The translations under genes were made by a program, and so were the position numbers. The notes below the pieces were generated by a model. It was given only the letters and a program-made list of their open reading frames with translations. It did no database searches and was not told the DNA's origin. Below, piece by piece: positions 1 through 27,923 of a stretch of DNA of 64,000 nucleotides; within the stretch, counting starts at the first letter, position 1; each line of letters begins with the position of its first letter. The stretch is from Botryosphaeria dothidea (Eukaryota > Ascomycota > Dothideomycetes > Botryosphaeriales > Botryosphaeriaceae), in assembly GCA_011503125.2 (NCBI GenBank), contig WWBZ02000051.1, positions 3,844,001-3,908,000 of the forward strand. The letters are read 5' to 3'.

Positions 1-3000
1 CCGTGCCAGAGCGACCAGGCGCATGGCAAGCACCGAGTCGCCTCCAATCTGCAAGAAGCTATCTTCGGCCCCGATTGAGCTTTCGTCAATGTCCAGGCAG
101 GTAGCCCACAGCCGCTGTAGTGTTCGCTCTGCGCCCGTGGAAGGCGGCCTCTTGCAATCCGGCGGGGACAGGAGGAGCGCCGTCTCGTCTGCAGAGAGGT
201 CTGATCCGATGCGGCGAATCTCCAAACGGTTGGTCTTGCCGGAGCCGTTTAGTGGCATGTGTGTAAGCGGCACGAATAATGCTGGTATCATGAAAGTGGG
301 CAGGACGGCAGCCAGAAGAGCCTTCAGGGCTGGTGTGGCTGCACGAATCTCCTTGAAGCGAGCTACGTCGACTGCAGCCTCGTCGCCAATTCGTGAGCCT
401 TTGGGCGCAACGAACGCCAACAGAGTATTCGCGGAACGGCCCTGCAGCGTCACCACGTCCACCAAAATGTCGTCACCTGGAAGCGCTGTCTTGAGATGGT
501 GTTGGATCTCGTTCAGCTCGACACGCTGACCGCGAAGCTTAACTTGCGCGTCTTTCCGGGCCACGAACTCAAGCGCTCCATCATCACCATAGCGCACCAG
601 GTCACCGCAACGGAACATGCGGCGTGAGCTACTGTCTGCGTCTTTCTCACAACTCAGAGACACCACCTCCCTCGCCCACGCCGGGTTCTCAAAGAAGCCT
701 CCGGACTGGATATCGTGCTGGTTGATATAACCTCTCGCCACGACAGGCCCCTCCATGACAAGCTCCCCAACGGTCCCCACGGGTGCCAGCACATCACAGT
801 CATCCGGATCGACAACCCACGCGCGCCCACCAACGGCGCGGCCCAGCTGGTGTCGATACGTATGTGGCCGCATCTCCTGCAGCATGCACAGCGTCGTCTC
901 GGCGGGGCCGGAGCACTGGAACAGACGCACGCCACCACTGCCCGCGGTCCATGCGTCGACAATCTCCTGCCGCACCGGCTCGCCGCCCACCACCAGCACC
1001 TGCAGCCCAGGCACGTCCGCTGGCTGGAAGAGCTTGACGGTCGACGGCGTGAAGAAGGCCCAGTTGACGGCGAAGCGGTTCAGTGCGCCGACGAGGTCGT
1101 TGACGCGCTCGTCGCCCGACGGGACGCAGACGCAGCCGCCGCGCATGAGCGTGGTGAGCATCTCGTACAGCGCCATGTCAAAGACGTGGTTGGCGAACTG
1201 GATCACGCGGGAGGCGGGGGTGACGGCGAGGGCGGGGCCGTGGGCGGCGACGCTGGCGCAGATGGTCGAGTGCGGTAGGATGATGCCCTTGGGGCTGCCG
1301 GTGCTGCCGGAGGTGAAGACGATGCAAGCTTTATTTTGCGGCTGGACATGGGTGAGCCGAGCGAGGTCGTTGGCGGGCTCGAGGGCTGCGATGTAGTCGG
1401 TCGATAAGGTGATGGCGTGAGGCGCCAGTGGTGCCAGCGTGGAGGCATGCGTTTCGGATACCAGCATAAGTTCTGCACCGGCCTCGTTCAAGATGGTGCG
1501 CAGGCGATCTTGCGGGTGGGAGGGATCCAGGAAGACGAAAGACCCTCCCGCTTCGAGCACTGCCATGACAGCGACGACGGCCCATTTGCTTTTCTCGAAG
1601 GTCAGAGCAACGGTAGACTCTGGCTGAACCCCATGCGAGATCAAGTCCTTCGCCAGTGACCTCGAGATAGACACTAGCTCGGAGTAGGTCAAGCTGCCGT
1701 CCCATGCGCAGACTGCCTCCGCTGATGGTTGCCGAGCGACCCATGCCTCCACTGTATCGTGGATGCAGCAGTCCGGCTCTGAGAGCACGGATCCATTCCA
1801 CGCAAGAATTTCCTGCTGGTCGCTTGGACTGATCATCTCCAAGTCTCCCACACGTGCGTCATGCGGTCTGCTGCAAAGCTGAGCCAGGACATGCTCGAAC
1901 TGTCTGAACAGCCGTCTGATCTGGATTTCCGAGACGACAGCGCTATCAAAACTGGCCGATGCAGAGATGCAGCCCTCAGAAGGAGTGAGTTGAACCATCA
2001 GAGCATACACATTGAACTGCGACAGATCTCCCTGCGTACTCGCTGACGCGAAAAGCGGGCCCGTTTCTTCCTCCGCGCCCTGAATCACGAGTATGTTTTG
2101 GAACCGACACGCCGCCTCGGTCTCGGCATTGATCTTGCGCAGGTGATGCAGGCCCAGCTGCTCATGTGGCATCATGTCGGTCCTCTGCCCGTCGACGCGG
2201 CGCACCAGGCTCTCGATTGTCTCATCATGCGCGAAGCCTATCCGGATGGGCACCGTCGTGAACGTTGGCCCGATGATGTCTTCGACGCGCCGGAGAGAGC
2301 CACTGCGCCCGCTCAAGGTAGCGCCAAAGATAACTTCGGTCGCATCAACGTATCGTGCCGTTGTCAGAGCCCACGCGGTCCACATGAGAATTGGGAGGGT
2401 GGCGAAGGGAGGCAGCGTGATGGGCGGCTGCAGTGAGACCTCCATATTCTGTCTTGGCTCTGGCTGGTATGCCACGGAGGGCAGGCGAGGAAAGAAGGAG
2501 GTTCCATCCAGCCGAGAAAGCTGTCTGGCCCAGTAATCCTTTTGGGCCTGTGGATCAGCCTGGAGCGAGTGCTTGATGAACGAGTTGAATGCAGGTCTGG
2601 CTACACATGGACCGCCAACGTATGCCTGTTCGACTGCCCTCAGTGTCAGGTTCACGGACCAGCCATCGTACAAAGCGTGATGCTGTGTCCAGACGAAGGA
2701 GAGTCGAGCGGTGCCTTCATTCCGTACCAACGCGTAGCGCCCAAGCGCTGTTCCCAGGTCCATCACGACGTTTCTGTCTCTCTCGAGGTAGGAATCCAAG
2801 TCCGTTTCTCGAAACCACTGGATGTGTTCATTGAGGACAACCTGCAGTATGGCAGAATCGGACTGGACGATGCGCGTTCGCAACGTGGGTGTGGCATCAA
2901 ACACAGCCTCCCATGCGGATGTAAACATGGTTATGTCGGTATCGGGCGGCAGACTGTACACATGCTGCGAGACGTACGATCCAGGGTTCTTGACGGATAG

Positions 3001-6000
3001 CGCCATGATGCCCTCTTGAAGTGGTGTGCAGGGGTAAACATCAAGCACCCTCTCCGGTGGTACTTGGCAGCGGTCCGCAACCTGCCGTAGTAGGCCCGCA
3101 TTCTCGGTTTTGGATGAGTGCGGTAGGAGGGCGAATGGTGCTACCTCCAGAGTCTCCAAGTTACCAAGATGTCGAGCAACAGCAGCCATTTTTGACAATT
3201 TTGGGTTGCGCAGGATCTTCTCGGCAGTAATGTCGATGCCATGTCTGGGGTGCCTCGCCACCGCAACCATTTTCATTGCAAAGATGGAATCACCGCCATG
3301 TTCGATGAATGTGTCGTCAGCGCGTATGGCGGATGAATCAGCTCCCAATACTTCGGCCCACAGAAAACACATCTTCCGCTCCATCTCCGTGGAAGGCATC
3401 CGTCGTTCGATTGCTTCCTTGAGAGAAGACGCGAAGATTATTTGAGCCCTGGGCATAGACTTGGCCCTCTCGCGGAGTTTGTTCCTGTCAGCCTTCCCTG
3501 TGACGGTGTGTTCGGCTGCCGCGACAGGGATGAATGCGGATGGAACCATGTACTGGGGAAGGGAGGCAGATAGTTTCTCAAGAAGCAGGTCAAGCTGCGC
3601 CATCTTCCATGCCTGTGTATCTTCCTCCTCGCCGTCTCTTTCCGTGAATTCAATAAAGGCTGTCAGGTTTCCATGCGGGTTGCCCTTGTCATAGGTGATC
3701 AGCTCCGCCACGACAGTGCGGGCGGACGGCAGGCAGGCCCGGATGCAATCCTCGACCTGCACGAGCTCAACTCGCTGCCCGCGAATCTTTACTTGCGTAT
3801 CCTTGCGACCCAAGATGGCAGTGGAGCCGTCGTCCTCAAACCTGGCCAGGTCGCCAGTCTTGTACAGCCGGCGAGTGCCAAAGCTCTCAACCGGCAGCCA
3901 GGCCGGGTTCTCGACAAACCCTTGCCGCGTCTTGGCCTCGTTCTTTAGGTAACAGCGCGCGACAGTGGGCCCCTCGATCAGCAGCTCACCGGAAATACCG
4001 ACAGGAGCGAGCTTGTCATAGTCGTCGGCGTCGACGATCCACCCCAGGCAGGCTTGAGCGTGGCCAACGTTGGAGGTGTCGGATGTGAGGCTCATGGCCG
4101 ACGTAGCATGGCTCAGCTGAGCGACTTCGGTCGGTCCGTACATGTTCACAAGCCTGACATGCTGTGCCCATGCTTCGACTAAGGTCCGGGTCATTGGCTC
4201 TCCGCCTACATACAGGTCCTTGAGTGTTGGCAGTGTTGCAGGCGAACCGAACGATTCGGCCAGGGACGGAGTGAGTTCCGCCGAAGTGACGGCCATCCTG
4301 TTCATGAATCCCACCAGATCGTTGGCCCGTTCGGTTTCTGTGGGAAGACAGACGGTGCCTCCGAACATCAGGGTCGTCCAGATGTCCTCGACGGCCGAGT
4401 CGAAGCTGAAGGACGAGAACTGCACAACCCGTGTCTGCTCGTTGCGCTTCAGCCACTTTGCGCGGACGGGAATGCCCGACGCCCACGTTCGATGCTCGTG
4501 CACGATGCCTTTCGGGGTGCCCGTTGTGCCGGACGTGTAAAGAACGAAGGCGGGATGGCTGGGAAGTACGCCGGTCGGAGGATCGATGAAGTCAAAGCCA
4601 TTGGCTGGCAGCGATTCAAGGAGCTTTTCGTCGAGAACCAGAGCCGGAACTGAGCCGGTGAACCGTTCGGACTGGTTCGGAGAGCAGAGGACCGCCCGTG
4701 CATCTACTTCGTGCACGATGTGATTGATCCACGCTTGCGGGTAGGCTGGGTCCACGGGAACAAATGCGCCGCCAGCCTTCCACACTGCCAGCTTGGCTAC
4801 GACAGCCCACCGTGTCTTTTCGAAGCAGACAGGCACCAGAGCGTCTGGTCCGATTCCGTAGCGGTCGAAGAGATGGTGCGCCAGCCGGGTCGACAACATA
4901 TCAAGTTCACGATACGTCAGATCGCCCGCCGATGTCGCTACCGCCACCGACGCAGAAAACATACGCAGCGGTAGCTTCAACAGGTCGTGCATGCAGAGAT
5001 GCAAGGATGCTGGGTAATCGCTGTTCCTACCAAAAATTAGGTGCCGGTCCACTGCCGTGCACAGGTCAATGTCGGCAACCCTCGTTCGCGTCCCAGACGA
5101 GGCGAGCTGTTGTGCACCCTGCCCAAACTGGGCGAGGAGGTGGTGCACTCGGGTCTTCGACAAGACGCGGGAATCAAAGCTGGCCGCCACGGTGACGCTG
5201 TCGGGTCCTATCGCGCAGTTCAGATCCAACGCGTACGTGGACGAACTGTTCCAGTCCTTGATCTCGACAGTCGAGTCCAGAAACCGGGAGTTGTACGAGT
5301 CGGCTTCGCTCTGGATGACGAGGAGGGTCTGGAAGTCACAGGCCTGCGCGGCATCGACACTCAGACGCTTGATGCGCTGCAGCCCTGCCTGCTCGTACGG
5401 GATCATGGCGGCGGCGTCATCCTGAACCTGTTTGAGAAATTCCGCAACCAATTGCCCGCGAGGCACGTGTATCCGCACCGGAACTGTAGCAATGGTCGGT
5501 CCCGGCACGTGCTCGATGCCTGCAATTGGAGCTGCTCTGCCATTAACAGTCGCGCCGAACGTTATGTCATCCTGCTCGGCGCATTGGGAGAGTAACAACG
5601 CCCAGGCGCCGCGTAACAGGTTTGCTGATGTAGTGGTGCAGTTGGCTGGCTTCGAAAACGGGAAAGTGAAGTTTTCGGTGCTGTCAGCTTGCGGGAAGTG
5701 GAGCGGTGGGACTCGCGGGAACGACATGGGTGCTATACCGGCCAGGTACTGGGTCCAGAAGTTTGCTGACGCGTTCTGATCCATTGCAGATGTATGCTTG
5801 ACAAATGACTTGAATCCGGCATGGCGTACGACACTGTCCCCCGAGTATCTTCTCTCTACTTCTTGGAACAGCATCGACATCGACCATGCGTCAAATAGTG
5901 CGTGGTGTGCTGTCCATACCATGATTCTACTTTCCTTTTGGTCGTCAACTATACAATATCGAGACAGCTTGTTGCCACACTGCATTGGAATGTTGCTATC

Positions 6001-8443
6001 CTGAGCAAGATAGGCGTTCGGGTCTGCATGCGAAAGCCACTCACTTGTTTCGTTGAGTACAACTTGCATCAAGCCTTTTGAGGTTTGGACGATCCTCGTC
6101 CTCAGGATGGGCTGCCGGGCTACGACTTGATTCCATGTTTCGCGGAATTTTGCCAGGTCCACAAGAGGTGACAGATGGATGAGCGACTGCACCACGAACG
6201 CCCCAGGTCGCGCGGTCGTCATTGACATCATTCCCTCTTGCAACGGAGTGCATGGGTATACGTCTTCGAATGAACGAAAATCCAAATTGTGCAAGGTCGA
6301 TATTTCTTGACAGATTTCAGAGTAAGCTTGTGGTCCTCCAACAAGGTCTTGTTGCTCATCCGTAAGGCCGTTGGGTTGGAATAGGGTGGAAATTCCCTTG
6401 GCCATGTCGGCAAGCCTCGGGCTTTGGAATATTGCTTGAACAGTGAGCCGCTTATACTGCGAGCGGAGCTTTGATACAACGTGCATGGCTGATATCGAAT
6501 CTCCGCCAAGTTTGAAAAAGTCGTCATCGATGCCGATGCTATCCGCGGGAAGACGAAGGATCTCCAGCCAGGCAGCGCAAAGCAATACTTCCTCCTCTGT
6601 CCCTGGGGTAATTTTTGCATCGTTGGTCCCACCACTCGACAAGGCGGACAGATCGCTAATTGAAAAACGAGAGATGGTGTCTCGTATGGATTTGCGGTCC
6701 ACCTTGCCGGTGGGTAGACGGGGAATGCGAGTGTTTGGGATGAAGTATGCCGGCACCATAAAAGATGGCAACGTGGCTTCCAGCTGGGTCTTCAATTTTT
6801 CCATTGCCGTTCCGAACTGGTATGTGAAAGTGTCTCTCGTAAGCAAATTCCCTTCTGCGCCATGACGGTCCGGAGGCTTCCCATCATCGATGACGGCAAC
6901 GAGTTTTGGCGCACCATCACCTTCAGAGAAAGTGACTGCATCCACAACGACGGTGCTGTTGTCTCCGAGCAGCCGGCGGAGGTGGTGTTCGACATCGGCT
7001 GGGTCCACTCGTTGACCGCGGATTTTAATGACAGCGTCCTTGCGCCCAACGATTTGTAGAGAACCGTCGGGGTTGTATCGCGCCAAATCTCCTGTCTTGA
7101 CGAACCGCGGCGGCCCCTGCGAGGGCAGTAGGGCTTGCCAAGCTACGGCCTCGACAAATTTTTCTTTCGTCTTGACGTCTTCGTTCAGATATCCGCGGGC
7201 CAAGTTCCATCCTTGAAGCAGCAACTCGCCCACCTCGCCTATTCCGACCAGGCGATTATGGTCATCTGGGTCCACGATCCAGCTGTGACAGCCGACCGCA
7301 TTACCGACCGTTGCGTATTCATCCCGCCGTTGGATTTTGTGAAGTATGGCCAAACCCGTCTCGGTGGAACCATATGCGTGGATAAGGTTCTTGGAAGAGC
7401 TCCACTGGTCGATGATATCTTGCGGTACCTTCTCTCCACCGAGCGAAACTGTCTGCAATGATTCTATGCTCTCGTACCGGAGACTTCGCAGAAAGCTGGG
7501 AGTCAGGACGCCGATGTCAATCTTGTTGTCTCGTATGAATGCGGCCGGATCGTTGGTTCTCTGCTCCTCCGAGGGTACACAAAGGCATCCTCCCGATATC
7601 AGAGTGGCGAAAATTTCGATCGTGCTCGGGGACCAGATGAAGGCCGCAAATTGAAGCACGCGCGATGAAGGACTGAAGCCAAACGGAGGTATTAAAGAGG
7701 CAATAGCCGTCAATATTGACCTTGCGGAAGTTATCAGCACGCATGAACGGAGGTGGATGAGGTTTGGAGAATACACACCGGTGTTCTGTTATCACACCAT
7801 TGGGTTTTCCGGTACTTCCAGACTGTAAGCAGTATCAGCATTCTGGCTATACCCTGGCAGCGACATGCGAGTGTCTTACAGTGTACAAGACAAACGCAGC
7901 GTTGTGCGGACTAGGCGTATGAAGCACGGGTTCATCCGTTTGTGCAAGAGTCTGGAGAAAGTGTGCATCGACAGTCACAATTTCGATTCCCGTGTGGGCG
8001 CGGAGAGCCTTGTTGGACTTCGGAGATCCCAGCACGATTTTTGCTCCAGAGTCTTTCAAGATGACATGGCGACGCGCCGCGGGTTGTTCAGGGTCAACGG
8101 CAAGGTAAGCACCGCCGGCTTTCAACACGCCCAGAAAGGCAACAATAGCCCAAATAGATTTCTCGAAGACGACGGGCACGATGACCTCCGGCCCAATACC
8201 TCTATTGGAGAGGTACAATGCCAGGCGGCCTGAGAGGTCATCAAGCTCCAAATATGTCAATCTGCCATCCCACGCAATGATGGCCTCCGAGTGCGGTTGT
8301 AGACGGGCACGATGGGAGACCAGATCGTGCACACAGGCGTCGACAATGGGAGCAGGCGTGGCATTCCACTGTGTAATCTGCCGCCAGTCGTGGCCGCTGA
8401 GCCCGTTCAAGTCGACGCTTGCAAGACACTCGTGGCTTCCCAT
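1..8443 (-). CDS. Nonribosomal peptide synthetase, N-terminal part (A-T-C-A-T-C-A-T-, cut by window edge)
   Basis: Multimodular NRPS that activates building blocks as adenylates and joins them on carrier domains. The start is ATG at 8443. Two introns (7823-7879 and 7721-7778) lie inside the first adenylation domain, and the rest is one open frame to base 1, giving 2776 codons. Approximate order on the minus strand: A1 8380-6700, T1 6620-6470 (GGDSISA), C1 6290-5050 (HHALFDAWS), A2 5000-3490 (YTSGTTGTPKG), T2 near 3270 (GGDSIFA), C2 3040-1880 (HHALYDGWS), A3 1800-230 (FTSGSTGSPKG), T3 near 40 (GGDSVLA). There is no condensation domain before A1, so A1-T1 looks like a loading module. A1 has Ser where A2 and A3 keep the Asp that binds the substrate alpha-amino group. 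No epimerisation or methylation domain is seen. The C-terminus, and so release chemistry and module count, lies outside the window. Confidence 0.96.
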
Positions 8444-8975: not shown

Positions 8976-10072
8976 ATGGCTTTGATACCACGGGACCTAT
9001 CCGCCTTCACGGCGGGAACGGACGAGCAACGTCGGACCTTCGCGGCAGAACTGCTTGATGACTATCAGCGGTGCGGCTTCGCAAAGATTGTCAACCACGG
9101 CATCACGGAGGACGAGGTGCGGCAGCTCTTCGAATGGGTATGTGGTCTTTCGGAGTGTGGCTTCGATCCGACAACTGAAGTGGACTTAGAACAAGCGGTT
9201 CTTTGGCTTGTCGGCGGATGCAAAGCAGGCCATTGCCCACCCGCCCGGGCCAAACCCGCAGCGAGGATGGTCGCGCATTGGAGCAGAGAACTCATCGAAG
9301 CTCTATGCTAGCGAATTTGCAAGGGGTGAGCGTCATGAAGAGCTGCGAGACTGCAGGGTATGTATGAGCTCCTTCTGAGCTTGCAAAGGCTAATGGCTGT
9401 TTGCCTACCAAGGAGCATTTCGACATGGGAAGCGCGGAGGACCGAGAATTTTGCAACCAGTGGCCCGCAGAGGGGCGATTGTCGGGATTTCGGGAGTTCA
9501 TGGAGAGCTGCTTCGACAGACTGGCGGCGGTGACACTCAACATCCTCAAGGCGCTCGAGCTGGCACTGGGCATTCCGCACGGCTCCTTCACCGCGCGCGT
9601 CAGCAATGCGGCCAGCGAGTTCCGACTGCTGCATTACCCCTCCATCGACGTGCAGGCAATCCGCAGCGGCATGGTCAACCGCATATGGCCACACTTCGAC
9701 CTGGGTGTCATCACGTTGCTGTTCCAAGACGCGCAGGGCGGGCTGGAGATGCAGGACCGCACGACGTCGCGCTTCGTGCCAGTGGATCCCGGCAGCTGCG
9801 GCGAAATGGTGACCAACATCAGCGAAACTCTGCAGCGGTGGACCAACGGGGCGATCAACGCGGGCTTGCACCAGGTGACGGTGCCAGAGGCGATGAAGAC
9901 GATGGAGGAGGGTGTGATGGCGGACCGCTACTCAGTGGCCTTCTTCTGCAAAGCCGACCGGCAGGCCTCCGTTGGCCCCATGGAGTTCTTCCTGTCCGCG
10001 ACGCGTCCAGCAGAGTACAAGGAGATGAGCGCGATCGAGTATCAGCAGCAGCGACTGTTGACGGCATACTGA
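8976..10072 (+). CDS. 2-Oxoglutarate/Fe(II)-dependent dioxygenase, isopenicillin N synthase-like
   Basis: A 327-residue cytosolic-type oxygenase in three exons: 8976-9137, 9196-9357 and 9413-10072. The N-terminus has the family's GFAKIVNHGI stretch. The iron ligands are visible as H202-F-D204 (WPHFD) and H261 (LHQVT), with the co-substrate-binding RYS motif about 20 residues further on. Enzymes of this family hydroxylate, desaturate or oxidise amino acids or peptide scaffolds. Divergent transcription next to the NRPS and the P5C reductase downstream make hydroxylation of an amino acid (for example leucine delta-carbon oxidation towards a methylproline) or of the peptide product plausible, but the substrate cannot be read from sequence. 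A related gene lies at 26779-27923. Intron sites were chosen because they restore the conserved frame and give 984 coding bases. Confidence 0.93.
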
Positions 10073-15250: not shown

Positions 15251-16222
15251 TCAATTCCCCGCGGCCTCCTCGGCGGTGACGACGTGTTTAGTCCGCATCG
15301 CGTGTGCCGTCCCCTTCAATGCCTCCTGCAAGCTGATCACAGCACCCCTCTCGTGCAACATTGCGAGCCCTCGCGCCGTAGCACCATTGGGAGTGGTCAC
15401 CGTCTCGCGCACTCTCGCAGGATCCTCACCCGCCAGAACCAGCGCTATCGTCCCTCGCATGGCCCCCGTGGCCATGCGGAGCGCGGCCTCGGCATCGAAC
15501 CCCATGTCGGTGGCGCCCTGGGCCATCGTCTCGAGCATCAGCGCGACGAAGGCGGGTCCGGAGGCACATAGCGCGGTGGCGGGATCCATCAGCGCCTCGG
15601 GGACCAGCTCGACGTGGCCGAGCCTGTCAAACAGGGCGAGCACGGCTTCGTTATCTCGGCTGCACACGCCGGGGCGCTGCTCCACAATGGTGGTGGAGGC
15701 GTGGACGCGGGCGGCAACGTTGGGGATCGCGCGTAAGACGGCGTAACTGCCTCCGCGGTGGGGACAGACGTCGGTGGCGGCTTCGTCGAGGGTGCTGACG
15801 ATGCGCGAGGCAGGCACGCCGCCGAGCACGCTGACGATGAGCTTGCCGCGCAGGGTGGCGGCCACGCCTGGGGCTTGGAGGAGCGCGGGTGCGTCCGCGG
15901 GCTTGCACGCCAGGATCACAACGTCTGCAGGGCCGACCGCGGACAGAGCATCGCCACCGTAAACGGTCGTGAGTCGCGAGGCGGCCGTGGAAGCGGGGTC
16001 GATGGTGGCCTGGATCCTTCGCGCGCTCTCCTGGGAACGGACGTACGCGATGTAGCGGGTCGATGCCAGCGAAGAATCGTCGTCACATCCCATCAGGCCA
16101 GCCAGGATGGAGGTTCCGAGGTCTCCTGCGAGTTGTTGTCAGACGCTTTTAGCCGGAGCAGGAAGGTGATGGCTGGGCGCGATCTCACCGCAGCCGAGAA
16201 TTGTGACAGTGCGGAACGGCAT
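15251..16222 (-). CDS. Pyrroline-5-carboxylate reductase paralogue
   Basis: A 302-residue NAD(P)H-dependent reductase that converts 1-pyrroline-5-carboxylates to prolines. Exon 1 is only 34 bp (16189-16222) and ends inside the nucleotide-binding loop. A 63 bp intron (16126-16188) separates it from exon 2 (15251-16125). The joined protein starts MPFRTVTILGCGDLG, giving the GxGxxG Rossmann motif. The family signature is visible near the C-terminus (TTPNGATARGLAMLH), as is the ASGPAF segment. It converges on the transporter with 92 bp between stops. Primary metabolism needs one such enzyme. A copy inside an NRPS cluster suggests a dedicated step, most simply reduction of an alkylated pyrroline carboxylate to a methylproline. 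That role is inference. Confidence 0.94.
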
Positions 16223-16745
16223 GGTAGTGTGTGCGGCTGAGTGGTGTTGCTGAATCGATGCGACGGGGGCCGAAACTATGCAGCGGAAGATTTTGGGGGC
16301 AGCGTGGTTGCCTGTTATCGTGGCTGTGGAGCACGTCAGCGCCGAAGCGCCCTGATCTACCTGCTCCATCCGGACAATATCTGCAATGGCGCGGAGATCG
16401 GCAGGCGGGGTGGCAGTCCGGGTGGCCCCGCGGGGGGCTGACCCACCGCCGTTGCTTCGTCTAAAGCTTGTTTGGGATCCGTCATGGAACCCCTGTAGAT
16501 TTCGATCGTCCCGCGGGTTCCCCAGGCTAACGTGCATGTAGATAAGGAACCCTGCAACCATCTCCCAGGTAGAGAATCCCGATCTCTAACCATGAACCGG
16601 GTTTGCAATCCTTCAGCAGGGTTCCGTGATCCCTCGAACTGCACGACCTCGAATCGCCGCACACACTAGAGGCTTGTGATAGCTTGTCCATGCTTTCCAT
16701 GTCTCAACGGGGCCCCCGAGATTGACTGCGACGGCAACACCAACA
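16223..16745. promoter_or_regulatory. Divergent promoter region, P5C reductase / UstYa-type oxidase 1
   Basis: A 523 bp gap between two genes transcribed away from each other. Open frames on both strands here show no domain. I see no clear TATA box or regulator palindrome. Confidence 0.4.
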
Positions 16746-17736
16746 ATGAAGCACCCCGACGACGAAGCTGCCGCCAGCGAGCCCTTTCTCGAGTCCGCAG
16801 AGAACGACGAGATTCCTGCCCGTAACCGGCACACCAGAGCACACACATCTTCTCTGTGGATTACGACCATTCTCTTTGTACTCTATATCCCGCTGCTGTT
16901 GGGGTATTATACTCTCTATGGACGAATCAACGCCATCCGCGCGAATAATCCGGCGCTGATGCCTAGTGGGCTTCCCCATCGTTTGGAGCATTTTGCAGTT
17001 TCCACTGCTGACGTTTAGATGGCAGTCCTGGCGCGGCGGGACGGCGTGCTGGAATATGAATTGAGAAAATTCAGCGACTATGCCACATCGCCGTTTGCTG
17101 GCGACCCGCGGCCGGAACTCGAATCTGCCTGGCATGAGCTATTCTTATGTTGGAAAGCCCGCACGCTTTCAGCGAATTGTCTGGAGCTGACGCGCGGGCA
17201 GACATGAATATTAAGGTTGAAGAGGAAGACCTTACGGACGTCAACCTTACTTCTTTGCAGCTTTCTGACGGCTCGGGCTACGTGGCGCAGCCGAGCGTGT
17301 TCCACGAGCTACATTGCATTGTATGGCCTACTCCTCACCGTGCGAATAACATCTCAAGGCTAACCTGAGTTTTAGAAGCGCATCCGCCACTGGATCTACA
17401 GAGATCACTACCTGCCCGGCATTTCCGGTCACGAATATGCCAATTGGAAGGGACACATTGGTATGAATCGCTGCTTTCGTGCTGGACAGAGGGAACAGGA
17501 GCTGACATGGATTTCCAGACCACTGCATCGAGATGCTCCGAAGTGCCGCGATGTGCAGGGGAGACACCGCGCTGTCAACCTTCCACTGGCTCATCGAAGA
17601 TGGTGTGCCAAAGCCTTCGGCACAAGATTTAGGCGTCCATGAGTGCGTCAAGTGGGATCCGCTATTGACTTGGGTCAAAAACAAGGAGGTTGATCTGTTT
17701 GATGATACGGTGCTGAAGAAGCCGGAGGGTTATTGA
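16746..17736 (+). CDS. UstYa-type (DUF3328) oxidase 1
   Basis: A 254-residue membrane-anchored oxidase in five exons: 16746-16965, 17026-17148, 17202-17320, 17376-17460 and 17519-17736. A charged N-terminal tail is followed by one membrane helix (about residues 45-65) and a lumenal domain. Both family metal-site motifs are present: HELHC at 149-153 and HIDHC at 181-185, the second rebuilt only by splicing. UstYa proteins catalyse oxidative cyclisations of fungal ribosomal peptides such as ustiloxin and phomopsin, and also act in cyclochlorotine (NRPS) biosynthesis. An apparent TAG at 17017-17019 lies inside the first intron: the acceptor at 17025 removes it and gives a 60 bp intron. The gene is the leftmost of four such oxidases around the precursor at 19449. 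Confidence 0.9.
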
Positions 17737-18020: not shown

Positions 18021-18876
18021 TCAGCTGATGTCCGTGTTGTCTCCCATTCTCCATTCACTTGCCCACCGAACAACAGCATCGTAGTCTCTGCACTGCCGCT
18101 CGTAGCCCCATCCAGTAACACCTTTGAGCTCCATATTCATCGGCTCAATATTGGTGTCGGCCGTGCACATGAGGGATTGACGAAGATAATCAAAACAGTG
18201 CCTCATGTGGTGCGGGTCATCGTGATCCCCGTGGCCCTCATGCCCAGCATGTTCGCTTGGATGCGAGTTCAGAGCTTTGTAGTATCCTCCATGGATGGCG
18301 TGCTGTAGAATTTGGATTAGCACACGGTACGATACTTTGTGTTGTGAATGTACATACCAGACAGTGGAGGGAATGGAATACGGCCAATGCAGAGATGTCT
18401 GGTGCCATTGTTGGGTGCTGCACGAAACCTCGTCCCTCTGAACGAAAGGTCAGTCAGCCCAGGCAGAATGTAGTCATTCAGTGTCTGGAGTGATGCGTAC
18501 GTGGAAATAGGGCCATCCAGGCTTCCTCCGTCTCGTTCGAAGGAGGTTTCGAAAATGTGCTGTCGTAGACAAGAGTACGTCTGACAGTGCCCACTGGTGC
18601 TATGTGCTCGTCAGTATGATGATTTCAGGTAGCAGGGCTGTTTAATGTGGACGAACCGAGGTATCCGTCAACGCCATCAGTGGGGTTCACTTGGGCTCCA
18701 TACCGCCCAGCAAAAAAACCCAGCATCCCGACGAACGGAACTGTCAAGACGAAGCACAGCAACGCAAAATACGGATTCAGATTCCAGGTCTGAGGACTAC
18801 GGCGGATGGGCGTCTCCACTTCACTTGACTCCTCTTCTGGAACTGGATCGTACTTTTCGCGCTTGCTGAAAGCCAT
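18021..18876 (-). CDS. UstYa-type (DUF3328) oxidase 2 with histidine-rich loop
   Basis: A 226-residue protein in four exons on the minus strand: 18657-18876, 18501-18599, 18358-18437 and 18021-18302. A charged cytosolic tail (MAFSKREKYDPVP) precedes one membrane helix (about residues 35-57). The two HxxHC motifs are HSLHC at 128-132 and HMRHC at 165-169. The spacer between them contains eight histidines in residues 147-168 (18198-18263), alternating with Gly, Asp and Glu, which the other three paralogues lack. It faces the precursor gene across a 572 bp divergent promoter. It is likely to act in the secretory pathway on the precursor peptide. Which bond it makes is unknown. Confidence 0.88.
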
Positions 18877-19448: not shown

Positions 19449-19775
19449 ATGCATTCCAAGGCCTATATGCTCGCTCTCGTGGCCCTGGCCGCCACTGTCA
19501 TGTCTGCTCCTGTTGTCGAGCCCAATATCCACCGTTCGTGCCACCTTTGACCGTTCCTTCCCTTCTCCTGCTAACATTTCACAGCTGCCATGAGGCGTGC
19601 TGACGGAGATGATTCTGTTGTATATGCCTATGCTCCCGATAAGGCTAAGCGTGCGGAGCAGGACGGAGATGCAGCCGTCGTCTACGCTTATGCCCCGGAC
19701 AAGGCTAGGCGTGCGGAGCAGGATGGGGATGCAGCGGTCGTCTACGCCTACGCCCCTGAGAAGAACAAGGCCTAA
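19449..19775 (+). CDS. RiPP precursor peptide, dikaritin (ustiloxin/phomopsin) type
   Basis: A 91-residue secreted precursor in two exons (19449-19533 and 19585-19775). The intron has a GCTAAC branch site 9 bp before its acceptor. Residues 1-20 form a signal peptide (hydrophobic LALVALAATVMSA). After the first dibasic RR (32-33) come three copies of a roughly 20-residue unit, each holding VVYAYAP at 40-46, 60-66 and 80-86 and separated by KR (50-51) and RR (70-71), fitting Kex2 processing. The third copy ends the protein without a dibasic site. This is the layout of UstA/PhomA-like precursors: signal, acidic spacers and repeated Tyr-containing cores. The mature core is probably YAYAP or YAYAPD, which matches no dikaritin core I know. 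The four UstYa oxidases are the expected modifying enzymes. Confidence 0.9.
19599..19772 (+). repeat. Three tandem core units of the RiPP precursor (60 bp period)
   Basis: The units are 19599-19652, 19653-19712 and 19713-19772. Units 2 and 3 share AEQDGDAAVVYAYAP exactly. Unit 1 has a shorter, diverged leader part (ADGDDS). The Tyr-Ala-Tyr-Ala-Pro codons are conserved with synonymous third-base changes, indicating selection on the peptide. Confidence 0.92.
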
Positions 19776-20196: not shown

Positions 20197-21152
20197 CTAC
20201 TCTACGTGTTTTGGAGTATTGTTGACCATCTCAAAGCGATACTTGTTGTGTCCTGGGCGCAACCTTCCATCAGGACCAATTGTCCGTTCGCCAGGATCGA
20301 TAAGCCGCTGGTGAACCCAAGACTCCACATTCCTGAATTTGACGCATAAATGATCCTTTCCTGGGCTCGGTATCGGTACAGACTGGCCTTCCTCCCAGCG
20401 ATAGGGCTCAATGTTCACATCCGCGTGGCACATGGCCGCTTCTCGAATCACCTGTAGACAATGGTCTTCTGAAGTCAGCAACAACGACTGTAGTAAAAAG
20501 GCCCAAACTCAGCTTACCCAAGTGGTCTTCTTTCTCATGCAGCTGGTCCAATGACTCCACTCTAGCATAGCTACGTTTGATCCATTCAAGGCAATGGAGC
20601 TCATGGTAGACGCTCAAGGTGGCGAGGTATCCCCCGTGCTCAAGTTCAATAGAGTCGTCGATGCCACCACGACTCATTTCCAAATCTTCCCGAGTTGCGC
20701 GGAATACCTCGCCTGTCCTTTCCCTGTTAGCTTGTCCAACGAGAATTGGAGATCCGGTGGCCTACCTCTCATCAAATCATCCCAGATGTCTTCCAGCTCC
20801 GGCCGGGGCTTGCCAGCCCACGCATTGACATTGCTTTCATCCAGCTCTCGGTATTCATAGGCAACAACAGGATTGGCTGGTGCTGAAGTAACGTCAGCTG
20901 GCCGCATACGCGCATGGGGTGGTGTAGGTACCCACAAGGGGGCAAGTCGGAGCATCCTGGCGTTATTCGAGGTGTTTGTGAAGTGAATTTCAAAAGCGCC
21001 AGAAGGTCTAGTAGTAGCACGCCAATATTGACTGCTACAAGGATGCCGATCCACGACCACTTTCGAGTTGGTTTGTGCGTCGCAGTAGAGTGCACGAGAT
21101 CAGAGTCAGAGTCTCTCCGGTCGTCCTTCAAAAACGGCTCGGTGTCGGTCAT
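20197..21152 (-). CDS. UstYa-type (DUF3328) oxidase 3
   Basis: A 265-residue protein in four minus-strand exons: 20936-21152, 20766-20882, 20518-20712 and 20197-20465. The N-terminus is acidic and soluble, then one membrane helix (about residues 34-55). The motifs are HELHC at 148-152 and HLDHC at 175-179. The last acceptor is a tandem CAG/AAG site: use of the distal AAG (intron 20466-20517) gives the canonical HLDHC, while the proximal site would insert one Glu and break the motif spacing. The conserved Trp-Asp/Glu-rich segment (PRPELEDIWDDL) before the first motif is present. It is divergent from oxidase 4, with which it shares a 454 bp promoter. Confidence 0.88.
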
Positions 21153-21606
21153 GGCTGGTTACTGAGTGGGTAGATTGCGTGCGAAGACAGAGGGTGGAGG
21201 TCGAAGCGGCATGTCGACGACAGGACAGTTCGACTCGGTGAACACGAGCACGGCTACGAAAGTGGACTCGGCTCCACACGGAGCTCCTTTCTGCCTGAAT
21301 CTCCGCCAAACCTAATCACACATGCAGGGCTGAGGGCAAAGGTCGCATCTGCATATTTCATAAGCGCGGGAGCGGCACAAGGGGCTGGATCGTCGCTGAT
21401 AAGAGAGGGTCTTACCTGTTTGGTCGATCCGCGCACGAAGGATTTAGCTTGCATATTGACCTAAAAACTGTGCAACCCAAGCGAGCTTAGCAGTGTTGGA
21501 TCAACATTGGGGGCGCTGCTGAAACCCCGCCGCCCACCAGTCTTGCGTTTTCGCACGGCCGTTCGCGGTCGCCCTCTTCCACTCGCATGCTCTGAGATTC
21601 ACTGCC
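21153..21606. promoter_or_regulatory. Shared divergent promoter of UstYa oxidases 3 and 4
   Basis: A 454 bp region with ACTCGGCTC (21266-21274), the inverse of the motif at 18928-18936, and a further ACTCGGTG about 35 bp to its left (near 21235). The repeated CCGAGT core could bind a cluster regulator, but no regulator gene is in the window. Confidence 0.4.
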
Positions 21607-22695
21607 ATGGCATCCACCAAGTACACCGCTCTTCCTGCATATCAGCCAGACGATGGTATTCCAGCAAGAGATGACAGCCAACCTGACGAAAAGCCGATAA
21701 TTCGAGTCGAAAAGTCTATATCTACTACACCATGGATTGCTTCTACCGCGCTACTGCTCGTGGTTTGTGTCGTCTTGTCAATTCAACTTTGGAAGATCAG
21801 CAATATGTTCCCATTCGGCACCTACGAAACACGCTTTTCAACGGATATGGGTTTGTCAAATCATGCGATATTAATCCGGTGGATGAAACTGACCGTTAGC
21901 AGATTTGCCTGATCAAATACCACTAGAAAAGAAGAGATTCACAGGCACACCTCGATTCGAACCAAACGGAAGCACCTGGAGGACATTCAATCCGGAAGCC
22001 GAATGGCCGGAGAATGTCCGTTACGTCGGAAAACCAAGCCAGGCAATGGATGATGCATGGGAGGACTTGATCGGATGTAGATATGTTTCCTTGAGTGAAG
22101 AGGAGGCCGAAGCGACGTGGGGATCGAAATACGAAGATTACCTTGATGAAGGACTGGGTGGATATACGGCCGGGTGAGTTACATTAGTATACCTCTGAAT
22201 ATTCCATGTTCTGATAAGAAGCCAGTCTGGATGTGTTTCATACTCTCCATTGCGTGGTAAGCCTTTCCTGAGACCTTGCCCGAGGCAGCGCTGACGAAGT
22301 TCAGAATGCACTACGGAAAGCGCTATACCCAGAATACTACCCAGAGACAAGACTACATGGAATTATACATCTTGGTATGTCGCATTCAAACATGAAGTGT
22401 ACATCCGCTGAAGTAGGCCATAGAACACTGCATTGATGTGTTGCGGCAAGAGGTACAATGCTATGGGAGTACTACGCTCATACCGTCTCGGTTCTTTCCC
22501 GCAATCGAGCAGAATTACATCGACTCGGATCAAATGCATGTCTGCAGAAACTTCAAGACATTGCGAGAATGGACTGATAGGAGACGAACCGGAGGAGATC
22601 TTCACGTTGAACGGGACCATGATAATGTTGATCCCGCGATTTATGAGAAAGCTGTGCAGTACAATCTAGATAAAAATGGAATGCTGTGTAGCTAA
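21607..22695 (+). CDS. UstYa-type (DUF3328) oxidase 4
   Basis: A 295-residue protein in five exons: 21607-21850, 21903-22173, 22226-22256 (31 bp), 22305-22374 and 22424-22695. The tail is cytosolic, with one membrane helix (about residues 42-63), then the variable linker and the PSQAMDDAWEDL segment. The motifs are HTLHC at 177-181 and HLEHC at 204-208, each close to an exon junction. The short exon 3 carries just the first motif. It is the most distant of the four paralogues by eye. Its role is inferred from the neighbouring precursor peptide. Confidence 0.9.
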
Positions 22696-22935
22696 ATAAG
22701 ACTGTTCAATAGCAATCTTGCTCCAAAAATTGAGTTGTAACAAGAGAAAAGCATGATGTGAATGAGAATAGCGGCAGCAAAGTGGGGAATTGCAGCAAGT
22801 CCCGCAGTCCGGGCACCTGCGGGGACGCTAAATCCTCATTGTGGAATGTGGTACGCCCTTCGCCGCACATATAAGGTGCATGCCCCCGTTCGATTTCTTC
22901 TCGCTCAGCCCGAAAACCCCAGACAGAATCTCCAA
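22696..22935. promoter_or_regulatory. Promoter of the Fe(II)/2OG oxygenase
   Basis: A 240 bp tandem gap. TATAAGG at 22870-22876 lies 66 bp before the ATG at 22936, a spacing similar to the TATA boxes before the synthase and the third dioxygenase. Confidence 0.5.
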
Positions 22936-23907
22936 ATGACGACCCAAGTTGAGACTCAAACATCGCCCGAAGTCCGTGTTCATGGAGTACTCCCCACTCA
23001 TCCGGCAGCGAAATGGAACACGGACCAAGCCGTTCCGCTGAGCAAACAGTCATTTCTAGATTTGTTGGATGGGAAAACCCCGCTGATCAAGATTCCTGGT
23101 TTCGCTTCGAAGGAAGTCTGTGAGAAACTCGTTGCCGAGCTGACACCCAGACTCTGCCCGTATCTGCATGCAACTGGGCCCGCCGTTCAGAAAGTCGGCC
23201 TGGCCCAGTTCGAGTTCCAGGCTCAGTCGGAAGAAGACTATAAGACGCGCACAGGCAAAGGTGAGCCATGTCGTGGGATACTATTCGCCCTGGGCTGGGC
23301 TGACAGACAGAGCTCAGAGAAACAGCGGTACTTCGAAGAATCTGCCAAGATCCGTCCCCTGCACGACGATCTCGCTAAAGCCGTCGGTGAAAACGTCTGG
23401 GCCAGAGTCATCACAAGTCTTGCGGCTCTGGTTCCGGAGTGGGACGTCTCTGTTGCCAGTGAAGGAGAGAGCAAGGACTACTTCTCTGGGATCTTCCGCT
23501 GCATCAACAACGGAACGCCTATCCACTGCGACTGGTGCCCCTATGACTGCAACACCGAAGACTGGATCATCAACCGTATTACAAAGCAGGCTGTGTTCAA
23601 TCTCTACATTACTCCGATCCGTGGTGGCAGGACAACGCTGTACGACGTCCAATGGACTCCGGATGCCCTCCGGTATCGCGATCCCAGCTCTTACGGCTAT
23701 TACCCCGACCTCGTCGAGGGTCGCAAAAGCTGTCCCTTCGAACCAGAAGTGGGGGACCTCTTCATCTTCAACTCGAGGAACATGCATGAGGTGCGAGCAG
23801 TTGACAAAGCTACTGGAGGTCTGGGAAGGATTGCCCTGGCAAGCTTCATGGGTCTTCTGCCTTGCGAGGAGACGAAGGGGAAGCCGAGGCTCATGTTCTG
23901 GTCGTAA
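22936..23907 (+). CDS. Fe(II)/2-oxoglutarate oxygenase, single exon, distinct from the IPNS-like pair
   Basis: A 323-residue protein without introns. The metal triad reads H197-C-D199 (IHCDW) and H284 (NMHEV). Asp199 is kept, which argues for hydroxylation-type chemistry rather than the Fe/2OG halogenases that replace this Asp with Gly or Ala. The C-terminal LGRIALASF strand supplies the usual Arg for the co-substrate. There is no signal peptide, so it should act in the cytosol, on free amino acids or an NRPS-derived peptide rather than in the lumen with the UstYa proteins. It is unrelated by eye to the dioxygenases at 8976 and 26779. I do not recognise a characterised orthologue. Confidence 0.85.
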   Translation: MTTQVETQTSPEVRVHGVLPTHPAAKWNTDQAVPLSKQSFLDLLDGKTPLIKIPGFASKEVCEKLVAELTPRLCPYLHATGPAVQKVGLAQFEFQAQSEEDYKTRTGKGEPCRGILFALGWADRQSSEKQRYFEESAKIRPLHDDLAKAVGENVWARVITSLAALVPEWDVSVASEGESKDYFSGIFRCINNGTPIHCDWCPYDCNTEDWIINRITKQAVFNLYITPIRGGRTTLYDVQWTPDALRYRDPSSYGYYPDLVEGRKSCPFEPEVGDLFIFNSRNMHEVRAVDKATGGLGRIALASFMGLLPCEETKGKPRLMFWS

Positions 23908-24327
23908 GGGAATTACGCTTCGTAACGGGTCGAGATTTCTTTGCCATAGGGTTATTTTCTCTGTTACAATGATGAATACAGCATTCGCATGTTTCTCTAT
24001 GTTCCAGAATAAAGATGCATAGTTTTGTAGTTCTTCACCTCGCGTCGAAAGGCGAAGGTTCGTGTCTCCGTGGGATTGCGGCGTGCGGAGGTTGTGTGGT
24101 TGGCGCGTAGCTCCATTGTTAGCGCCCTCAGTTCAAAGCATTTGAGAAATTAATTCTTGTCGATATTCCCCGGGTTGGAAAATTTGATTATCATCCTAAT
24201 AATATGGCCGGTAGGTTACTAGCATCATGCAGAGAGTTCGTAAAGGAGCTAGATTCATATAAAAAACTGAAGTTATGAAGTCTCAAGTTCGCTACTGTGC
24301 AACAAACTTCGGGGAACAATGGCATCC
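23908..24327. other. Convergent intergenic region
   Basis: A 420 bp gap between the oxygenase and the isopropylmalate synthase, both ending here. Nothing coding is seen. Confidence 0.4.
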
Positions 24328-26269
24328 TCAAAGGTCTTCCGATTTACACCGCCGTGAACAAACCCTAGCTGAATCGACTGAGCTCTTCGTTCGAAGTATA
24401 CCTACTGAGAGTTTAGTTTTATCTTCAACAAGTCTACTCTGTTGAAAGTTTGAGCTCACCATGGCAGATGACAGACACGCCAAAAGTTCTGCTTGCTCCG
24501 AATTCGGTTGCATGGATACACCCCAGGAGCCCGAAGTTGAGGTCGACAAAACTGCCTCCGCTACTACGAACGAATCCGTATACCCCGTCGCTGGAGCAAT
24601 GGGAAGATGGCTTACGCTGAACGACAAATGTTGTCCGGAGATCGAATGCACGGCGTTACTTACTGCGGCGGGGATGCCCTCTCCCACCCCGGCAAGGCCA
24701 GTGGAAATGTTCCCAAGCATCACCGACGCCTCGACTCTGCGGAGTAAAGCACCAGTAAAGCTCGGCTCGAGCCAATGTCGCGCCAACAGGATGCGGGGGT
24801 CAGGTTGCTGGACATGGTAGGTCTGGAACAGCAAGTCGCGGATCTCTTCCGGGGGAAGTGTTGCGCATAAAGCTTCCGACGCTTGCTTGACTGTCTTTGA
24901 GAACTCCAACGCAAGACCCCTGGGGATCTCGACGCCGAGAACGGATTCCAGTGACCAGCCCACACCACCCTTACCGCTCTGCGAGTTGACCAGAATGACG
25001 GCCTCGTAATTCAGACCAATATCCAAGGGATCGATGCTCAAGTAAGGAATCTTCCACTTGCTCTGACCATTCTGTTGCTGGCGGCGTTTGAAGCCCTTGT
25101 TGATGGCGTCTTGATGTGAGCCGCTGTACGCGCGAAACACGTAATCACCACTGTAGGGCATGCGGTCAGGAACCGTCATGTTGCTCATGGCTTCGAAGAT
25201 CTTGCGGATGGCTGGCAAGTTCGAAAAGTCGAGGTTGGGTGGAATTCCATGCGAATAGAGGTTGAGTGCCAACGTCACCAGGTCGACATTGCCGGTCCGC
25301 TCTCCGTTGCCAAAAAGGCAGCCTTCGACCCGGTCCGCACCAGCGAGTTGTCCGAGTTCCGCGGCGGCCACGGCGCATCCACGGTCATTATGCGGGTGGA
25401 GGGAGACGCAAACCTTTTCTCGAAAAGGGAGGCTCCGGCAAAACAACTCCACCTGGTCAGCATACGTGTTGGGTGTCGACATTTCTACGGTGGCTGGAAG
25501 ATTGAGGATGACTGGCTCATCATCGTCATTGGATTCCCAGGCCTCTCGGGCGGCTTCACATAGTCTTGCCGTGAAATGGACAGATGTATCTGAGAAGGCC
25601 TCCGGACTGAACATCAGATTCCACTTGGTGCGGCTTTGGCTGTGGTCGTCTTTGCTGATTGACCGGGCGTACTTCACGCATTCAACGACTGTTTCAAAAA
25701 CTTGATCCTGGCTGAGGCCAATGACGGTGTCTAGGAAGTTGTCACTAGATGCGATATAGAGACTCAAAGTTGCTCTCTTAGCCCCGGTGACACTATCGAC
25801 AGTCCGGCGGATATGCTCTTTCCGGCAGGGGGTTAAGACCTGGATCCAGACATCGTCGGGAACAGCATCTGGAGACTCGACCAGGCGCCGCGTGAAGTCA
25901 AACTCCGTCTGCGAAGCGCTAGGAAATGATACGTCGACCTCCTTAAACCCAATCTCCAGGAGCATCTTGAAATAAACCCACTTTTGCTCGACAGTCTGAC
26001 CGGGAAACGCTGTTAGAGCTCTTGCAAGCTGCTATCCGGCTCTGGGGCAACACACCATTGGTCGAGCCAGACTTTGGTTTCCGTCTCTTAGATCGGTGGC
26101 TAGCCATCGCGGAGCTTTCGTTAATACTCTGTCAGGCCATTGTCGGTTCTTAAGTACCGGTGGTCTAAACCCATCGTACTTCTCTGACGGAGTTTTTAAC
26201 CTGATTAAAATTAGAATGAGACTATGCAGATTCATGCGCTTCAAGTAGGGGATATACTAACATTGGCAT
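24328..26269 (-). CDS. 2-Isopropylmalate synthase paralogue (alpha-keto acid homologation)
   Basis: A 606-residue acetyl-CoA-dependent synthase of the LeuA family in three exons: a tiny 8 bp first exon (26262-26269), then 26056-26200 and 24328-25995. The 8 bp exon restores the usual fungal start [11 protein letters not shown]. The TAG seen at 26034 lies inside the 60 bp second intron. The catalytic TIM-barrel motifs are DLRDGNQ (metal and keto acid site), HPHNDRGC and GNGERTGN. The C-terminal regulatory domain is present ([11 protein letters not shown]), with a diverged end. Primary metabolism already needs one LeuA. A cluster copy usually extends the carbon chain of an unusual amino acid, as in homotyrosine supply for echinocandins. 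Its substrate here is unknown. It is divergent from the dioxygenase at 26779. Confidence 0.94.
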
Positions 26270-26778
26270 GTTGTTCCTACTTGCGTGATATCCGTTAACG
26301 TGTGTATTCTTGTCCCTCAGAATTGGCTTTATATAACAGGATTTCAGGATTGATTTCCCGTACTGTTCAAAGGCGAGATTCGTAATCTGTTTCCGCCCCC
26401 AAAATTATACGGGTTGCAAGATATGCGCTCATGCCTGTGCAAGGACTATATTGGTGTGCTGAATCCTACGAGAATTTTAGCGCTGATGTTGCAATGTCGC
26501 CTGTGAAACAGACACCTGGAAGATCATCGCGGTAGGGTCTTCCAGATTGGGCAGGTTCAAAGCACGGATAAGAGCCCTAACGTTGGTGTCCATCCGTTGC
26601 GCCATTATCTGCGGGGCTTGGGTTCCAAGCTAACGACGCGCCAGATCAACACTCTGCCCGCCCTCGCTCCCGTTGCACATGGCAGGGCTATGTATTGGGG
26701 AAGTCGGTTATAAAAAGGACAAGCTTTGTTACGCACCTTCGCTCCTACAAACACGATTCTTCTATAGTAAATTACGCA
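26270..26778. promoter_or_regulatory. Divergent promoter, isopropylmalate synthase / dioxygenase
   Basis: A 509 bp shared region. On the minus strand TATAAAGCC (26328-26336) lies about 60 bp before the synthase ATG. On the plus strand TATAAAAAGG (26709-26718) lies 70 bp before the dioxygenase ATG. Confidence 0.55.
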
Positions 26779-27923
26779 ATGTTATCGGCGGTTGACGCAT
26801 CAGCACTGCAGACCGGCGAGCCTTCCCAACTCGCTGTTTTTCGCACCCAGCTTATCGATAGCCTTGTGAGCCATGGATTCATCAGACTGATAAATCATGG
26901 TATTCCGGAGCACCAGATAGATGAAGTTTTCGAACAAGTGTGTCGGGACTATTGGTTCGATTGCAAAGTCAAATGGCTGACCATTGTATTACAGAGCAAA
27001 AATTTGTTTCAACTCCCGTGGGAGTCGAAGACCAAACTTGCTAATGATCCAGAAAAATCGGACTATCAGCGTGGCTGGAGTGCTCTCGGTGACGAGCAGA
27101 CATGGGCCCTGTTTGGGCAAGAGGGCGTCTTTGGCAGCAAGGAATCATCGGATTCCAAGGTCGGTAACGAAGAGGAAACCACCCCGGGCAGTAATCTGAC
27201 AAAGCATTGTAAAAGGAAAACTTCGATTTTGGCTCTCCAAGGGAGACCCGCTTCCCCAACAAGTGGCCGTCCGAGGAAGACCTGCCAGGCTTCCAGGCAA
27301 AGATGGAGGCCTTCTACCGCACCTGTCACCGCGTCAGCCAGCAAGTTCTGAAAGAGTTGGCACTGGCGTTGAACCTGCCGCCGGGCACTTTCGCGGAGCA
27401 GTGTTCCAAGAACGAAGCTAGTACCATGCGCATCAATCACTTTCCGGAGGTTCACGTCCGCGAGGTCGACGCTGGCCAGACGTGTCGCATCTGGCCCCAC
27501 TTCGACTTCGGCATCATCAGCCTTGTCTTCCGCGACATCGTAGGCGGGCTCGAGCTGGAAGACCGGGCACGGCCAGGTACCTTTGTGCCCGTACCGTGCG
27601 CGTCACGCACGGAGATGTGTGTCAATGTTGGCGAGCAGTTCCAGCGGTGGAGCAACGGCCGCATCCGTGCCGGTCTGCACCGCGTCACCAAGCCGTACCG
27701 CCGCGCCGAGCTGGTCGACGGCGAGATGCTGCCGGAACGCTTCTCAGTAGCCTTTTTCGTCAAGGCCGATCATGATGCATCTGTTGGTCCCATTGCGCGA
27801 TTCGTGACGCCCGAGTTTCCGCAGGCATACGAGGATATCACGGCGTCGGAATTCCAGCGCCGCAGGAACAAGGCCACGTACTATTCGTCCAAGCAGACTG
27901 CCGTGGTTGAGGCAGCCGCGTAG
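26779..27923 (+). CDS. 2-Oxoglutarate/Fe(II)-dependent dioxygenase, isopenicillin N synthase-like (second copy)
   Basis: A 343-residue protein in three exons: 26779-26937, 26995-27159 and 27216-27923. It is a paralogue of the enzyme at 8976, with the same two intron positions and shared blocks (GF-RL-NHGI, IWPHFDFG, RFSVAFF, ASVGPI). The iron ligands are H203, D205 and H263. It may oxidise an amino acid precursor or the finished peptide. Echinocandin clusters carry several such enzymes with separate targets. Short reading frames that start before the first ATG at 26779 begin with non-ATG codons and were not used. It is the last recognisable cluster gene before the transposon border. Confidence 0.92.

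Follow-up and report, generated by a model that had tools for sequence, protein, structure and literature searches.

Do the oxidase genes that lie among the genes of a fungal non-ribosomal peptide synthetase (NRPS) serve that synthetase, or do they form a pathway of their own? The question is raised by a stretch of 64,000 nucleotides from the plant pathogen Botryosphaeria dothidea (C47:3,844,001-3,908,000 of a 51.7-Mb genome in 78 contigs; C1, C4, C12, C18, C36 and C58 are other contigs), which is called the window here. Its positions 1-27,923 hold twelve genes, among them an NRPS and, between four UstYa oxidase genes, the precursor of a ribosomally synthesised and post-translationally modified peptide (RiPP). 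On balance, we favour the nesting of a RiPP pathway within an NRPS gene set, with two products that are most likely separate and share one locus. From left to right, the order is NRPS, OX1, ABC exporter and P5C reductase; UstYa1, UstYa2, precursor, UstYa3 and UstYa4; and OX2, 2-isopropylmalate synthase (IPMS) paralogue and OX3.

8443 to -4613 (7880-8443, 7779-7822, 7720 to -4613), minus strand: NRPS, 4,313 amino acids (aa), three exons; Pfam AMP-binding, Condensation and PP-binding
8976-10072, plus strand: OX1, UcsF-like 2-oxoglutarate (2OG) dioxygenase, 329 aa; DIOX_N and 2OG-FeII_Oxy; best PDB match UcsF (9ktp), 267 bits
10418-15158, plus strand: ABC exporter, 1,521 aa, four exons; ABC_tran in two stretches, ABC_membrane
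15251-16222, minus strand: pyrroline-5-carboxylate (P5C) reductase, 302 aa; P5CR_dimer and F420_oxidored
16223-16745: promoter region of 523 bp shared by the divergent P5C reductase (NRPS set) and UstYa1 (RiPP set), from the gene models
16746-17736, plus strand: UstYa1, 254 aa; PF11807 with 152 bits; HELHC and HIDHC
18021-18876, minus strand: UstYa2, 226 aa; PF11807 with 86.5 bits; HSLHC and HMRHC
19449-19775, plus strand: RiPP precursor, 91 aa, three repeats with VVYAYAP core and KR/RR sites; no Pfam match; identical to a deposited protein
20197-21152, minus strand: UstYa3, 265 aa; PF11807; matches a deposited protein
21607-22695, plus strand: UstYa4, 295 aa; PF11807 with 137.5 bits
22936-23907, plus strand: OX2, 2OG oxygenase of the WelO5 fold with an HxD metal site, 304 aa; PF22814
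24328-26235, minus strand: IPMS paralogue, 615 aa; HMGL-like and IPMS_D2
26779-27923, plus strand: OX3, second UcsF-like 2OG dioxygenase, 343 aa; DIOX_N and 2OG-FeII_Oxy; UcsF (9ktp), 244 bits

All twelve genes have spliced models with uninterrupted reading frames. Hand-set exons replaced automatic models where these were wrong. The precursor model was identical letter for letter to the deposited protein GTA08_BOTSDO08548 and the final UstYa3 model to GTA08_BOTSDO08549; identity to deposited proteins covers these two models only. The Pfam scan and homologue search of UstYa3 were carried out with a model of 266 aa, one residue longer than the final one. A preliminary description of this DNA had placed the NRPS, a dioxygenase, the exporter and P5C reductase on one side of the precursor with its four UstYa, and a second oxygenase type, IPMS and a further dioxygenase on the other; all of them are present, as judged by open frames and Pfam. 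It had also seen no primary-metabolism gene in between, and none is obvious among the twelve. The IPMS homologue reached 644 bits against TIGR00970 (yeast-type LeuA), below the cut-off of 697, and a further IPMS gene with 51% identity to it lies on C36.

The precursor has a hydrophobic N terminus (mean hydropathy 2.15 in a 15-residue window), which by its hydropathy qualifies as a signal peptide for the endoplasmic reticulum. Its VVYAYAP cores recur every 20 residues, each preceded by an acidic spacer and parted from the next by KR or RR; of the three units, the last is shortened and the others are complete. Within the seven-codon core, pairwise comparison of the units gives 6, 6 and 3 synonymous differences and no non-synonymous one. 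Because the core differences are synonymous only, the repeats are under selection, and the precursor is, judging from its codons, real and its core peptide apparently in use. In a protein database of 5.8 billion entries, the deposited B. dothidea precursor was the only match at E 10 or better (3 candidates).

Each of the four UstYa has a hydrophobic segment and the HxxHC motif twice, with PF11807 scores of 86-152 bits; the precursor is flanked by UstYa1 and UstYa2 on its left and by UstYa3 and UstYa4 on its right. In CctR, a motif of the HxxHC type is reported to bind copper, with two ions per monomer, and mutants lost activity (PMC12435403). Repeat precursors with DUF3328 neighbours are described as the mark of ust-RiPS, and 22% of the surveyed Kex2-type repeat proteins had such neighbours (PMC7329392). 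By analogy, the inner block (UstYa1-4 and the precursor, 16.7-22.7 kb) would make a dikaritin-type peptide: the precursor would enter the secretory route, Kex2 would cleave at KR/RR, and UstYa oxidases of the copper type would modify the three VVYAYAP(D/E)K cores, probably via the tyrosines.

The known dikaritins or ust-RiPS, namely ustiloxin, phomopsin and asperipin-2a, are described with a secreted repeat precursor, Kex2 sites and DUF3328/UstYa neighbours, as seen in the window (PMC7329392, PMC9233826). The window locus differs from them in its VVYAYAP(D/E)K core, in its position inside an NRPS gene set and in the absence of a tyrosinase, peptidase and methyltransferase among its twelve genes. 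Since the YxIx core of the ustiloxin/phomopsin type is absent, while asperipin is also grouped with the dikaritins without a Tyr-Ile link (PMC9233826), the claim is limited to a dikaritin-type and not a ustiloxin-like peptide.

The genes flanking this block have counterparts elsewhere. In the own-genome search, only one other site unites matches of OX2, OX1 and IPMS, at C47 ~2,968,900-3,004,800 and ~0.83 Mb from the window cluster. Its identities to the window genes are 71% and 68% for OX2 (two exons), 60% for IPMS, 38-46% for four UcsF-like oxygenases and 37% for a P5C reductase. This second cluster further holds a four-module NRPS as well as isopropylmalate-dehydratase-like, arginase-family, P450 and class II aldolase-like proteins. 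None of the 18 UstYa exon matches in the genome (nine loci; both counts are lower bounds) falls there. The window arrangement is called nested because its flanks resemble the gene set of this NRPS cluster, which has no detected UstYa; the nesting proposed in the preliminary description is thereby supported. The second cluster also resembles AM-toxin or echinocandin building-block sets. It was considered as a recent duplicate of the window cluster and as a full echinocandin cluster, and both were rejected, the former as every pairing of the adenylation (A) domains gives 33-39% identity and the latter as its NRPS has four A domains while echinocandins have six residues.

RiPP genes of this type also occur apart. 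A separate precursor with ten DEDAAKYYG repeats is encoded on C58 (positions 2099-2554 of C58:1970001-1978000, minus strand) beside UstYa matches at C58:1973689-1976302, and the sole condensation-domain match of C58 is found at a distance of 1.9 Mb. Two of the nine UstYa loci, the window locus and C1:4,406,705, have a condensation-domain match no more than 20 kb away. At the latter (C1:4,406,705-4,420,065), the UstYa match is 13 kb from the condensation-domain match, which makes it a second candidate site of UstYa and NRPS. Separate occurrence of the two blocks had been named beforehand as an argument against one joint cluster; this genome does have them apart, though away from the window locus.

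The UcsF-like dioxygenases tie the two flanks together. Nine such genes were found with E <1e-37, including OX1 and OX3. Of the seven outside the window, six have a condensation domain at a distance of up to ~25 kb: the second cluster holds four of them, and C4 and C12 hold one each. The exception is C18:2,111,582 without a nearby condensation domain. As these genes accompany NRPSs outside the window, OX1 and OX3 were put in one NRPS set, even though the RiPP block separates them. Genes of two pathways are mixed at one locus, as in an interleaved supercluster.

The outer set, with NRPS, OX1, ABC exporter and P5C reductase left of the RiPP block and with IPMS, OX3 and probably OX2 right of it, would make a non-ribosomal peptide with a maximum of four units. 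The 3' end of the NRPS lies at C47:3,839,387 (window position -4613), 4.6 kb beyond the left window edge. With T for thiolation and C for condensation, its domain order is A-T-C-A-T-C-A-T-C-A-T-E, corresponding to four modules, where E is a putative epimerisation-type domain. This last domain carries HHLVFDLVSW, a motif of the HHxxxDxVSW type, and its PDB matches are PvdL (best, 78 bits), bacitracin synthase 3, tyrocidine synthases 1 and 2, gramicidin S synthase 1 and linear gramicidin synthase. Several of these entries are presumably epimerisation-domain structures, the domain type of PvdL being left aside; no epimerisation-specific model of NCBIfam matched the domain. From motif and PDB matches, we take this final condensation-like domain to be an epimerisation domain. 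The first A domain, A1, has Ser at the position of the A4-motif Asp, which is retained in seven of the eight aligned A domains (four here and four in the second cluster). This Asp binds the amino group of the substrate. As A1 lacks it, the NRPS may use a starter unit other than an alpha-amino acid.

UcsF has its role in the building-block module of UCS1025A. A UcsF/EcdK-like dioxygenase and a P5C reductase are both present in the window cluster, as in an NRPS set of the 4-methylproline type. OX1 or OX3 together with the reductase might convert leucine or a homologue to 4-methylproline or a similar ring, while IPMS would lengthen a 2-keto acid and OX2 would hydroxylate an amino acid. For echinocandins, a route to methylproline by EcdK and a reductase and a chain extension of the IPMS type are described (PMC7778625). 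The echinocandin and UCS1025A modules (EcdK/UcsF, P5C reductase, HtyA) resemble the window in this respect, where UcsF-like dioxygenases, a P5C reductase and an IPMS paralogue lie near an NRPS. Echinocandin clusters are described as lacking the reductase (PMC7778625), whereas the window has one, and its NRPS has four modules ending in the epimerisation-type domain. The isomerase, dehydrogenase and transaminase for chain extension are absent among the twelve genes. The AM-toxin cluster and its look-alike in Zymoseptoria tritici likewise combine an NRPS with an isopropylmalate-synthase homologue; homologues of an aconitase, a dehydrogenase and an aminotransferase are also present there, while the window has IPMS only, and the gene listing given in that source contains no UstYa, unlike the window (PMC5561558).

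A sequence search of PDB with OX2 gave no convincing match. WelO5-type halogenases carry a small residue in place of the Asp of the HxD metal motif. OX2 was considered as such a halogenase and rejected, as its motif is HCD in the window protein and in all 52 of 52 homologues. A G166D variant of WelO5 is among the PDB entries. Identities of OX2 are 82% to Diaporthe, 75% to Xylaria and 71% to its paralogue in the same genome. Path lengths in the OX2 tree put the window copy closest to Diaporthe sp. PMI_573 and Xylaria acuta; the copy from the second cluster falls with Macrophomina phaseolina. A horizontal origin was considered and is not claimed, since the fork parting Diaporthe/Xylaria from the Botryosphaeriaceae rows lacks resolution.

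Several observations weigh against the nested arrangement. The two NRPSs are only generically alike (A domains 33-39%), and the second cluster is no simple duplicate. The P5C reductase of the window has its closest paralogue in this genome on C1 (43%), ahead of that of the second cluster (37%). A search of seven promoter regions for a shared motif gave no clear signal: the 7-mer GGGCTGA occurs in five of the seven, one such 7-mer compared to a mean of 0.1 and a maximum of 1 in 60 shuffles, no 8-mer was found in at least four of the seven regions, and dyads stayed within the shuffled range. In Z. tritici, UstYa4 has a relative in strain 3D7 with 73% identity over 215 aa (joined with 100/100 support), UstYa3 one in IPO323 with 57% (in a five-member clade supported at 100/98) and OX2 one in 3D1 with 69%. 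The three relatives lie on similar-sized contigs of the three strains (3,819,071, 3,860,111 and 3,863,243 bases), a size that matches chromosome 2 of IPO323. OX2 is therefore assignable to either block; it may accompany the RiPP genes, or Z. tritici may have conserved the composite as a whole. Three predicted NRPS clusters are given for Z. tritici chromosome 2 (PMC5561558, Table 1). The UstYa homologue search yielded 53 matches of 4,444 candidates; UstYa1, UstYa2 and UstYa4 of this genome are not among the matches listed, so that a relative missing from the list was not scored as absent. In the UstYa tree, the branches of UstYa1 and UstYa2 are very long, and neither is placed.

It was asked whether some or all UstYa could tailor the non-ribosomal peptide as in cyclochlorotine, the precursor using a pair of them or being a bystander. 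We consider this rather unlikely. To our knowledge, the cyclochlorotine cluster is without a ribosomal precursor, whereas the window has one at 19449-19775 among its DUF3328 genes, and this constrained repeat precursor stands between UstYa2 and UstYa3. CctR is described as a DUF3328 enzyme that acts on the non-ribosomal peptide of the cyclochlorotine cluster by hydroxylation (PMC12435403), which would be in line with such tailoring, and the window also pairs DUF3328 genes with an NRPS. The number of UstYa points in the same direction, as there are four here compared to two with the ustiloxin precursor; however, phomopsin, a RiPP, has five DUF3328 neighbours by its precursor (PMC7329392). UstYa1 shares the divergent promoter region with the P5C reductase, and some UstYa4 relatives were deposited under the name "cyclochlorotine biosynthesis protein O". 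On the other hand, the second NRPS cluster has the same building-block genes and no detected UstYa.

A border at the gap between P5C reductase and UstYa1, where the NRPS set would abut the RiPP set without enclosing it, is regarded as quite unlikely. The RiPP pathway would then include OX2 and perhaps IPMS and OX3. The end of UstYa4 and the start of OX2 are 240 bp apart, the core contains proline, and the Z. tritici relatives of UstYa3, UstYa4 and OX2 on similar-sized contigs are consistent with such a border. Yet paralogues of OX2 and IPMS belong to an NRPS cluster without detected UstYa, and UcsF-like genes, the type of OX3, accompany NRPSs in six of seven cases outside the window.

One hybrid product, in which the processed ribosomal peptide is joined to the non-ribosomal chain, is very unlikely: the epimerisation-type domain at the NRPS terminus would suit it, and the release step is open, as no release domain was seen on the NRPS in the Pfam scan and the 25 kb left of its end gave no match with two queries (the last NRPS domains of the second cluster and the window NRPS), but both block types occur apart in the genome, a ligase is absent among the twelve genes, and Kex2 processing belongs to the secretory route while NRPSs are cytosolic, so that the parts would need to meet. 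Its specific form, a handover of the NRPS chain to the amine of the UstYa-modified ribosomal peptide to give a ribosomal/non-ribosomal conjugate, is highly improbable. Among the options first offered for this locus, interleaved pathways fit best, nothing found indicates a hybrid product, and co-regulation lacked a clear promoter motif.

No insertion footprints were found around the RiPP block, where the sole repeat of at least 20 nt at 15.0-24.5 kb is the precursor's own. The GC content of third codon positions spans 0.63-0.79 on the left, 0.45-0.65 among the UstYa genes and 0.59-0.68 on the right, without a sharp border. Five head-to-head pairs hold ten of the twelve genes. This pairing, with the P5C reductase/UstYa1 pair linking both blocks, would favour joint expression, and the locus is possibly co-regulated. 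No regulator is present among the twelve genes; a transcription-factor domain was found ~18 kb left of the NRPS end. Superclusters such as pseurotin/fumagillin and the Metarhizium ustilaginoidin/pseurotin/ovalicin locus are described as blending genes for different products at one locus, as in the window (PMC9600275). The Metarhizium supercluster differs in its embedded joint regulator and in its product classes, which are RiPP and NRPS here (PMC9600275).

The 18 left-flank open frames scanned include chalcone/stilbene-synthase-like, MFS-type, GST, NmrA-like, 2OG oxygenase and fungal transcription-factor frames. The chalcone/stilbene-synthase-like frame (L010:6850-7530, 51.5 bits at a cut-off of 27) lies ~8 kb left of the NRPS end with MFS-type frames between. 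From these frames, another pathway may adjoin, perhaps a type III polyketide pathway beside the composite cluster, and the left cluster border is not settled. On the other side, a strongly mutated block of repeat-induced point mutation (RIP) lies ~4 kb from the cluster (window 32300-60000; GC 0.31-0.36, TpA/ApT 1.9-2.0, (CpA+TpG)/(ApC+GpT) 0.02-0.10). An open frame that looks ankyrin-repeat-like by eye lies between cluster and RIP block (window 29188-29727, minus strand). The end of C47 is 0.17 Mb from the cluster.

Blended fungal clusters and DUF3328 enzymes acting on non-ribosomal peptides are known already; for a RiPP block inside an NRPS set, no description was found in the open-licence literature, searched mostly at title and abstract level. 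Fungal RiPP and NRPS clusters are usually handled as separate classes, and the locus tests how cluster-calling software deals with such composites. It can be considered as a natural test of cluster merging and of whether UstYa can act, within a single cell, on ribosomal as well as non-ribosomal substrates, and the two block types that occur apart in the same genome provide built-in controls.

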